From Flavobacterium lotistagni (GTDB taxonomy: Bacteria; Bacteroidota; Bacteroidia; Flavobacteriales; Flavobacteriaceae), in the NCBI RefSeq assembly GCF_011392125.1, contig NZ_JAAJBU010000009.1, positions 62,001 through 126,000 of the forward strand: DNA of 64,000 nucleotides. The letters run 5' to 3'. A program made the translations under genes and the position numbers. Shown here one piece after another: positions 2,715 to 55,069 of the stretch (position 1 is the first letter of the stretch; the number at the start of each line of letters is the position of its first letter). Under the pieces are notes generated by a model. The model ran no database searches. It worked only from the letters and a program-made list of their open reading frames with translations, and was not told the origin of the DNA.

Positions 2715-2784
2715 AGGAGCTGTTTCCCGCTATCCGCTGTAGTCCTCACTGCGTTCCGGGCTGCCGCTCCTATCGGGGCTAGGG
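2715..2784 (+). repeat. Dispersed palindromic intergenic repeat, copy 1
   Basis: Begins AGGAGCTGTTTCCCGCTATC and ends CTATCGGGGCTAGGG. It carries the GC-rich core type (AGTCCTC, then CCGGGCTGCC). Taken as forward orientation. It lies in the gap between the LOG gene and the alpha/beta hydrolase. Confidence 0.85.
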
Positions 2785-5407: not shown

Positions 5408-5585
5408 TTTAAAAGGTGCTAAGGTACTGAGGTTCTAAGGTGCTCGGGCGTTAATACTTTGGTGTTTGGGCTAACAGCTAATGGCTGAGCGCTGAGAGCT
5501 GAACTCCCGAAAGCCCTAGCCCTGATAATTTGATATTAAGAGGAGACCCGAGGCGAAGCCGAATTGTATGTAGCGTAGCGGAATA

Positions 5586-5602
5586 AATGTCCAGTGGACA
5601 TT
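5586..5602. repeat. Perfect inverted repeat AATGTCC-AGT-GGACATT
   Basis: Seven-base arms with a three-base spacer inside the repeat-rich gap upstream of the exonuclease operon. It may be an operator or part of a decayed mobile element; no T-run follows, so it is not an obvious terminator. Confidence 0.5.
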
Positions 5603-5669
5603 CGGCACACTAAACGTTATTAGAATTATACATTTAATTTTGAAAACGATACTTCGTCTTTCAGGAAAG

Positions 5670-5740
5670 CCCTAGCCCTGATGGTAGCGGCAGCCCGCAG
5701 CTTGCGAGGACTATAGCGAACAGCAGGTTCCCGGCTCCTA
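5670..5740 (-). repeat. Dispersed palindromic intergenic repeat, copy 2
   Basis: Reverse orientation: starts CCCTAGCCCTGAT and ends CCCGGCTCCTA. The core is the GC-rich type, in which GCAGCTTGC forms a small hairpin. It lies immediately downstream of uvrA and touches an AT-rich repeat. Confidence 0.85.
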
Positions 5741-8714: not shown

Positions 8715-8785
8715 CCCTAGCCCTGATAGTAGCGGCAGCCCGGAGCTTGCGAGGACTATAGCGGATAGCAGGTTCCCGGCTCCTA
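8715..8785 (-). repeat. Dispersed palindromic intergenic repeat, copy 3
   Basis: Reverse orientation, CCCTAGCCCTGATAGTAGCG to GGTTCCCGGCTCCTA, and nearly identical to the copy at 5670-5740. AT-rich repeats lie on both sides. Confidence 0.85.
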
Positions 8786-39197: not shown

Positions 39198-39278
39198 AGA
39201 AGCTGATCCGGCTGTCCGCTCTATCTTTTCCTGCTTAAAGAAAGCAGCAAAAGGATGCCGCTGCTATCCGGGCTAGGG
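39198..39278 (+). repeat. Dispersed palindromic intergenic repeat, copy 4
   Basis: AGAAGCTGATCCGGCTGTCC to CTATCCGGGCTAGGG. The core is of the CTTTT/AAAAG type, here CTTTTCCTGCTT / AAGCAGCAAAAG (one mismatch). It lies between the UPF0173 and TPR genes. Confidence 0.85.
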
Positions 39279-43447: not shown

Positions 43448-43527
43448 AGAAGCTGTTTCCCGCTATCCGCTATATCTTTTGCTCCGCTGTGCTGCACAAA
43501 AGGATGTCGCTGCTATCGGGGCTAAGG
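43448..43527 (+). repeat. Dispersed palindromic intergenic repeat, copy 5
   Basis: AGAAGCTGTTTCCCGCTATC to TATCGGGGCTAAGG. The core is ATCTTTTGCTCCGC / TGCACAAAAGGAT. It fills the gap between the BrkB-family and DUF2147 genes. Confidence 0.85.
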
Positions 43528-43541
43528 CTAAAGGTCAAACC

Positions 43542-43976
43542 ATGAAAAATATACTGAGTTTCGTATTTGTCTTCGTCTTCAGCACTGTGCTTTCAGCGCA
43601 AAATCCGGTTATTGTAGGTAAATGGAAAACCATCGATGACGAAACCGGAAAACCTTTGTCGGTCATAGAAATTTTCGAGAAGCACAACAAAATCTACGGC
43701 AAAGTCATAGAAATCTTCAATCCGAAAAACAAAAAAATCCCCAAATGCGAGAAATGCGAAGGCGAAGACCGCAACAAGCCCATCCTCGGATTGATTGTAA
43801 TTAAAGGCTTAAGCTGGGAAAAGAACGAATATACCAACGGCAAAATTCTCGATCCGAAACACGGCAAACTATACAAGTGTTCTATTTCGTTTGAAAACAA
43901 AGACAAACTCAAAGTTCGCGGCTACATAGGCGTCGAATTGCTCGGTCGCACACAATACTGGGAAAGATTAAAATAA
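43542..43976 (+). CDS. DUF2147-domain secreted protein
   Basis: A 144-residue protein. The ATG at 43542 gives a signal peptide (ILSFVFVFVFSTVL, cleavage after LSAQ). The mature part is a DUF2147 domain: VGKWKTIDDETGKPLSVIEI near the start, a CEKCEG motif, GLSWEKNEYTNGKILDPKHGKLY, and LKVRGYIGVELLGRTQYW at the end. The fold is a small lipocalin-like barrel; function unknown. A longer reading from 43263 would run through the BrkB-family gene and the repeat and is rejected. Confidence 0.88.
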   Translation: MKNILSFVFVFVFSTVLSAQNPVIVGKWKTIDDETGKPLSVIEIFEKHNKIYGKVIEIFNPKNKKIPKCEKCEGEDRNKPILGLIVIKGLSWEKNEYTNGKILDPKHGKLYKCSISFENKDKLKVRGYIGVELLGRTQYWERLK

Positions 43977-48482: not shown

Positions 48483-48563
48483 AGAAGCTGATCCGGCTAT
48501 CCATTGCAATCTTTTGCGCCGAACCCCGGCACAAAAGGATTTCCATTACTATCCGGGCTAGGG
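48483..48563 (+). repeat. Dispersed palindromic intergenic repeat, copy 6
   Basis: AGAAGCTGATCCGGCTATCC to CTATCCGGGCTAGGG. The core ATCTTTTG / CAAAAGGAT surrounds a GC-rich loop. It follows the rplI terminator. Confidence 0.85.
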
Positions 48564-54990: not shown

Positions 54991-55069
54991 AGAAGCTGTT
55001 CCGGCTTTCCGCTATATCTTTTGCTCTGCTGCGCGCCGCAAAAGGATGTCGCTTCAATCCGGGCTAGGG
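54991..55069 (+). repeat. Dispersed palindromic intergenic repeat, copy 7
   Basis: AGAAGCTGTTCCGGCTTTCC to ATCCGGGCTAGGG. The core ATCTTTTGCTC / CGCAAAAGGAT is of the CTTTTG type. It separates the two halves of the 5'-nucleotidase. Confidence 0.85.

Follow-up and report, generated by a model that had tools for sequence, protein, structure and literature searches.

Flavo-1 hairpins of Flavobacterium as candidate folded DNA sites: a conserved stem, variable tips and fixed intergenic addresses

The Flavo-1 family, hairpins of about 80 bases, was identified as an RNA motif through the comparison of genomes (PMC2864571) and is listed in Rfam as RF01705 with the type 'Gene; sRNA'. In the transcriptome of F. 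psychrophilum, Flavo-1 matches occur in sense or antisense indistinctly and many of them lie outside transcribed regions, although several 5' transcribed regions coincide with matches (PMC9723704). Two other described systems are comparable, namely the REP elements associated with RAYT transposases, which are dispersed intergenic hairpins with interrupted stems, and the attC sites of integrons, palindromes that are recognised as one folded DNA strand (PMC6006769, PMC2727003). The subclass 2.6 TnpAREP genes of Bacteroidetes have been reported to possess 'atypical' repeats (PMC6006769), and a survey for the detection of REPs gives REP counts for two Flavobacterium species, with or without Flavo-1 among them (PMC12306157). 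While the Flavo-1 family is known, tip exchange, modular tips, fixed addresses (positional conservation), strand evidence and a DNA role were not found in the passages covered, which included those of PMC2864571, PMC9723704 and PMC9029176.

Flavo-1 copies in the window, the genome and the genus

The window, i.e., the whole 64-kb stretch of DNA that was analysed, contains seven copies of a palindromic repeat, each at the position given by the initial annotation. The repeat is not a new one, as all seven copies belong to the catalogued family RF01705; five of them reach the curated cut-off of 42 bits (43-74 bits) and two score 39.2-39.3. The copy at 2718..2784 (minus strand, 43.3 bits) has a GAGGACT-type tip and is located in sense orientation 63 bp upstream of a LOG/lysine-decarboxylase-like gene, beside which copies are also found in other Flavobacterium species; three genes now lie between this copy and uvrA. 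The copies at 5670..5735 (plus, 39.2 bits, 57.1 with the sequence profile described below) and 8715..8780 (plus, 39.3 bits, profile 58.2) share a GAGGACT-type tip and a CCCGGC tail. Both are antisense, the former 20 bp from the stop of uvrA and the latter upstream of this gene, and they are indeed the two reversed copies that had been described as flanking uvrA, in which UvrA domains were detected. The copy at 39200..39278 (minus, 67.6 bits) carries a TTTCTTTAA tip and is antisense, with the stop of an MBL-fold hydrolase gene 6 bp before it. Two copies are of the ATCC-TTTT type: 43451..43527 (minus, 64.4 bits), antisense and separated by 16 bp from the stop of the preceding BrkB-family gene, and 54993..55069 (minus, 62.3 bits), sense and 7 bp after a gene with a 5'-nucleotidase C-terminal domain. 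The copy at 48485..48563 (minus, 74.4 bits), with a GGGGTTC tip, follows the gene of ribosomal protein L9 in antisense orientation.

All copies had been described as intergenic, and six of the seven are free of predicted genes, whereas the 43451 copy overlaps the called start of the next gene (43479) by 49 bases; it would be intergenic only if this gene starts, as is likely, at the ATG at 43542. The 5' module attributed to the family holds its position in all copies, but its exact string fits only 2718 and 43451 (with up to three mismatches) and the letters differ elsewhere. The 3' module is common to the copies, with eight matches at up to three mismatches compared with 0.38 expected by chance. 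The two core types were also found where they had been reported, CTTTTG..CAAAAGGAT in the copies starting at 39198, 43448, 48483 and 54991, and CCTC..GGGCTGCC in those starting at 2715, 5670 and 8715.

The eighth match to the 3' module is a fragment at 5514..5528 (plus strand, two mismatches) that represents a single Flavo-1 outer arm and adjoins another palindromic repeat; the sequence profile detected no full copy there. This palindrome (GTCCACTGGAC, TTCGGCTTCGCC), which together with the lone arm occupies 5514-5640, resembles by eye a stretch in locus L241, and the whole looks like a nested or decayed Flavo-1 copy. AT-rich repeats of the form TCAATTAATAATGAATAATTAATAGTTAATAATT were observed at 2653, 8653, 8782, 8825 and 37492, four of the five adjoining Flavo-1 copies, and degenerate runs of AGCTGATAGC or TCAGC-type words at 2790-2850 and about 5500, beside two Flavo-1 copies.

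The source genome (3.34 Mb in 51 contigs) holds at least 149 RF01705 matches over the cut-off (150 of 885 candidates scored); the 2718 copy, over the cut-off in the window search, is absent among the genome matches listed. From this genome 156 candidates were parsed, of which two were later dropped as spurious, leaving 154 copies. A sequence profile trained on 36 copies, which scores sequence and not pairing, detected 31 copies in 464 kb of contiguous source sequence with a lowest score of 25.0, and in the reversed-sequence control no score exceeded 15.4. Extrapolation from this density gives a genome total near 220 copies. At its cut-off, Rfam recovers at least 24 of the 31 profile copies (19 in C1 among the matches listed, and 5 in the window), and its lowest scores belong to the short GAGGACT tips. 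The source copies from elsewhere in the genome were retrieved around Rfam matches, so that the sample favours paired copies. Of the 40 genomes searched, the source genome included, 25 carry Flavo-1 over the cut-off. The congeners G018 and G020 gave no match over it among 89 scored candidates each, and Flavo-1 therefore seems dispensable for the genus.

Stem pairing and genomic addresses

The stem begins with an outer helix CCNG : CN'GG, followed by an A.G mismatch, a T x : x' A segment and a loop G y A / G z A, beyond which come a 2-bp helix, a second purine loop, a helix of 3-4 bp, a bulge and then the tip. Among the 156 source candidates, the outer free pair N is TA in 73, CG in 40, GC in 40, AT in 2 and other in 1, i.e., all four Watson-Crick types occur, 155 candidates are paired and G.T is absent. 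The inner free pair x is paired in 150 (GC 75, AT 46, TA 18, CG 11, other 6). Of the 156 candidates, 152 retain the A.G mismatch, and the G.A pairs of the loop are retained in 149 and 151, respectively, with variable middle bases y and z. Such G.A pairs are usually sheared, and those of the GNA/GNA loop probably are as well. A 3' A-tract is also conserved (62% A at positions 6-15 after the arm compared with 34% further out).

Pairing was assessed in three sets of copies chosen by the non-pairing profile and hence without selection for structure. Paired cells amounted to 244 of 248 in the 31 contiguous copies, 221 of 232 in 29 copies of the LOG locus (12 of which come from named records found via uvrA) and 138 of 144 in 18 copies of the MBL locus. 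Each of the three variable pairs tested beats all 1000 partner shuffles in each set. Selection on the hairpin, which had been suggested at the outset, is supported at sites chosen by the neighbouring gene, where Watson-Crick pairing at the free positions is far more frequent than with shuffled partners. Correction of one arm by the other as the sole cause was rejected because it would erase the G.A mismatches, which nearly all copies keep. As a separate observation, the GAT-G motif of the Flavo-1 arms is interrupted in L339, L342 and L263 by the insertion of a further small palindromic repeat of the TTACTTCAC..GTTCAGTGAA type, which in L339 is present in both arms.

Addresses were compared with G010, a single-contig congener. 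The 40 stretches fetched from it contain 50 of its 55 places that exceed the cut-off, and 42 elements were parsed from them with the profile. For 21 of these, both neighbouring genes lie at most 8 kb apart in the source sequence compared; a source copy has the matching orientation in 16 cases and the opposite one in a single case (L008), and is lacking in four. In the stricter set, in which the source gap contains no predicted gene (17), the respective numbers are 13, 1 and 3. Contiguous source sequence alone gives 7 of 9 shared addresses, strictly 5 of 6, all in the same orientation, and this is the fairer figure since the other source sequence was partly fetched around copies. The window copies 39200, 43451 and 54993 occupy the same gap in the same orientation in G010, and the 2718 copy lies beside the same LOG-like gene, all four with different arms and tips; counterparts of the 54993 copy are found at the same locus in G003, G007 and G010.

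Two loci were followed in 30 genomes each, the best protein matches with the source genome included. At the MBL-hydrolase locus (39200 copy), a copy is present in 21 of the 30 fetched genomes, 2-47 bp after the stop and always antisense. At the LOG-like locus (2718 copy), an upstream copy is present in 18 of 30 and in 4 of 20 further fetched genomes, always sense, and each of ten named records from the uvrA search that contain the LOG gene likewise has a sense copy upstream of it. The site is empty at LOG in 28 of 50 and at MBL in 9 of 30 fetched genomes; two of the locus copies score low on the profile (L328 18.5, L362 21.6).

Strand, molecule and mobility

Where one strand has a G.T wobble, its complement has an A.C clash, and the count of both was used to identify the strand whose fold is kept. 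In the source genome and G010 together, the Flavo-1 strand has 89 G.T and 18 A.C; because the copies are related, these counts are not independent and no safe p-value can be attached to the asymmetry. By context, the counts are 52 and 6 in antisense, 15 and 4 in divergent, 13 and 3 in convergent and 6 and 3 in sense copies, and in the 48 sense copies the asymmetry is not clear. The excess in antisense copies indicates that the kept fold belongs to the strand absent from the mRNA of the flanking genes. With DNA folding parameters, the Flavo-1 strand is the more stable one in 138 source copies versus 12 (36 versus 1 in G010), with RNA parameters in 85 versus 63 (26 versus 11 in G010), whereas shuffled copies have no clear strand bias in folding energy. 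As a preference for the Flavo-1 strand is seen in G010 with the RNA parameters as well, the argument for DNA is one of degree. Single window copies fold no better than shuffles with RNA parameters, and with DNA parameters only one of six window copies, 48481 (listed above as 48485..48563), clearly beats its shuffles (z -2.7). Judged from these sequence comparisons, we consider it an even matter whether Flavo-1 is a folded single-stranded DNA site rather than an RNA.

The Rfam reading, in which Flavo-1 would be a transcribed structured RNA, either an sRNA gene or an untranslated-region element acting on its own transcript, is the best of the alternatives but appears unlikely. It accords with the discovery of the motif, its Rfam type and the coinciding 5' transcribed regions of F. 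psychrophilum, as well as with the LOG-locus copies, all sense and upstream of a gene. However, between codirectional genes antisense copies are commoner than sense copies (65 versus 36 in the source genome, 18 versus 12 in G010), and they lie close to the upstream stop (median 31 bp); the remaining source copies are between divergent (28) or convergent (19) genes or at edges (6). The wobble count in antisense copies supports the non-coding strand, the MBL-locus copies are antisense in 21 of 21 cases, and a genome holds at least 149 copies. An intrinsic terminator was rejected, since in antisense copies, read on the mRNA side, the T-rich flanks come before the hairpin and not after it, and the Flavo-1 strand runs into A, not T. 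A replication-strand element was not supported either: the complete genome G010 has no such bias (31 plus, 24 minus; 384 of 500 shuffles split as well).

Less probable still, and in our opinion rather doubtful, is a REP- or MITE-like mobile hairpin that was once moved by a transposase and is now simply inherited, its A-tract being a target preference. Flavo-1 is dispersed and almost wholly intergenic: with a simple gene caller, 146 of the 154 source copies touch no predicted gene, 5 overlap one by at most 25 bases and 3 by more (window 43451, L027 and L038), and none lies wholly inside a gene. The conserved A-tract, the seeming absence from some congeners, the tail and tip families that differ between genomes and the 'atypical' repeats of subclass 2.6 (PMC6006769) would also suit a mobile element. 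The search for a RAYT gene proposed initially, however, gave no Y1_Tnp (PF01797) gene in the source genome (0 matches among 5 candidates scored), while 5 of 14 control genomes gave matches. Nor is there an excess of Flavo-1 around the Y1_Tnp genes of relatives, since an element is present in 2 of the 50 stretches fetched (157 kb, with at least three places represented twice), and subclass 2.6 as a partner, suggested by PMC6006769, is unsupported by these stretches. No clear target-site duplication was detected; with approximate ends, the best of about 1500 offsets tried has a z of 3.9 (6 of 152 source copies) and 2.7 in G010. Moreover, simple inheritance would hardly keep both pairing and orientation between genomes whose DNA identity at one shared locus is 68%.

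The motif GT[AG]G is rare at the foot of the hairpin, at the 3' foot of the other strand (10 of 152) as well as at the 5' foot (6 of 152). The R-box of attC sites reads GTTRRRY, and such a box was found near the ends of only 5 of 152 copies. The Y1_Tnp genes of the genus are of two kinds, strong matches near 155 aa, among them L135 and L153 with a YIxNQxxHH motif, and weak matches, often near 190-210 aa, among them L158 with a YIHNNP motif.

Tips, their exchange and comparison with known systems

The 'cores' of the initial annotation correspond to the hairpin tip of Flavo-1. Genome-wide comparison of the source copies revealed many tip classes instead of the two proposed. Assigned by crude patterns in 152 source copies, these are GGNGTTC tips (42), other short hairpins (36), long tips (25), AGCGGAGC tips (21), nested AAACCT palindromes (12), GAGGACT tips, the second core of the annotation (10), and TTTCTTTAA tips (6). 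Three source and two G010 copies have a tip, perhaps branched, that is about 100 bases long and contains ACCNNNGGAAGC. In several species a tip of CCCACGCTTTTTTGCGTGG or near it replaces the usual T-run tip, as in L288, L299 and L304 of G010 (nearly also in L268) and in L064, L340 and L366; such tips were counted in 4 of 42 G010 copies and in 0 of 154 source copies.

Mutual information indicates only loose linkage among tip, inner stem and outer arm. The observed value was reached by 790 of 1000 shuffles for x13-core, 885 for tail-stem, 454 for N9-stem, 62 for x13-stem, 9 for x13-tail, 1 for N9-core and none for N9-tail, N9-x13, tail-core and stem-core. Seven of the ten tips of at least 20 bases that were found more than once occur on two or more arm combinations. 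Within both the LOG and the MBL site, tip classes differ between species, the GAGGACT tip of the source genome among them, which agrees with the proposal of a modular palindrome whose ends are fixed and whose cores can be exchanged. The switch of tip type between species beside the LOG-like gene, together with the recurrence of identical tips of 25-43 bases on different arms, supports an exchange of cores at fixed sites. Gene conversion, template switching and the insertion of other hairpins are candidate routes for it. That there was no exchange at all, tips and arms drifting by stepwise compensating changes and shared tips reflecting chance or old relatedness, is very improbable: drift alone could suffice for the free pairs, which are saturated between G010 and the source genome (orthologues are no more alike than random copies, 0.224 versus 0.228), but it is contradicted by these identical tips, by whole inner stems of different type within one site among Flavobacterium species and by the CCCGGC tail, present on 56 of 154 source copies, on 0 of 42 in G010 and on 4 of 16 shared sites. 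The 16 same-orientation pairs of G010 and the source genome comprise 128 pair cells; 88 of these are identical, 34 differ on both sides but remain paired, and 6 fall in neither category. The lack of closer similarity between orthologues would also suit full concerted evolution, but drift could saturate the same pairs at such deep divergence.

The loops of 24 long-tip copies, 21-36 bases long and unlike in sequence, had no near-perfect match but themselves in about 1 Mb of source sequence, and a guide or spacer role was rejected on the lack of such targets in this part of the 3.34-Mb genome. Weak non-self matches are commoner than for shuffled loops (266 matches in five shuffled sets). The loops do not fold beyond shuffles (mean z -0.35), and a weak consensus by position is common to the 19 loops that are 31-36 bases long (9.4 bits versus 5.6 shuffled), so that they look like a diverged domain and not like captured spacers.

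With moderate confidence, we propose from the sequence evidence that every Flavo-1 element acts as a DNA site and is recognised as a folded single strand. This strand would form a purine-loop stem capped by a replaceable tip and followed by the 3' A-tract. A putative host protein would grip the stem and ignore the tip, so that the stem would be conserved while tips are exchanged. The stem would be kept by compensating double changes, and the tips would be exchanged between copies or nested with other hairpins. The data show the family membership, the lower bound on copy number, the covariation, the fixed addresses and orientations, the tip differences at these addresses and the wobble asymmetry; DNA as the acting molecule, the binding protein and recombination as the exchange route are what we infer. 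Against this DNA-site explanation we count that no candidate protein binding Flavo-1 was found in this analysis, the weak folding of single copies, the unclear wobble in sense copies, the lack of replication-strand bias in G010, the absence of matches in G018 and G020 and the empty LOG and MBL sites of some genomes.

Databases list this abundant family as an sRNA without assigned function; should it be a DNA site, many annotations would be of the wrong kind. On the DNA-site reading, a large bacterial family should also possess a host protein able to recognise folded single-stranded DNA. Flavo-1 constitutes a natural experiment on hairpin evolution, with the same address, the same fold and swapped tips in many species.

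Among the known systems, the Rfam entry RF01705 has the same stem interruptions, the same distribution in Flavobacteria and many copies, but is listed as sRNA, whereas the evidence presented here leans to DNA. Flavo-1 shares with the REP elements its dispersed intergenic hairpins with interrupted stems; it differs from them in the rarity of GT[AG]G at the 5' foot, in the lack of a Y1_Tnp gene in the source genome and in having addresses common to distant congeners. Unlike attC sites, Flavo-1 elements occur as single dispersed copies and not as cassette borders. The attC sites possess a conserved basal stem with strand-marking interruptions and a terminal structure that varies from a few bases to a branched fold (PMC2727003), and the sequence evidence on the Flavo-1 stem and tip agrees with such an architecture; recognition as one folded strand, established for attC, would apply to Flavo-1 by analogy. 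We tentatively suggest that Flavo-1 might be a new kind of chromosomal DNA site, a strand-specific purine-loop stem with a swappable terminal module, located at many fixed intergenic addresses across the genus, read by a host protein in folded single-stranded form and mended or re-tipped by recombination between copies, i.e., an attC-like site outside integrons.
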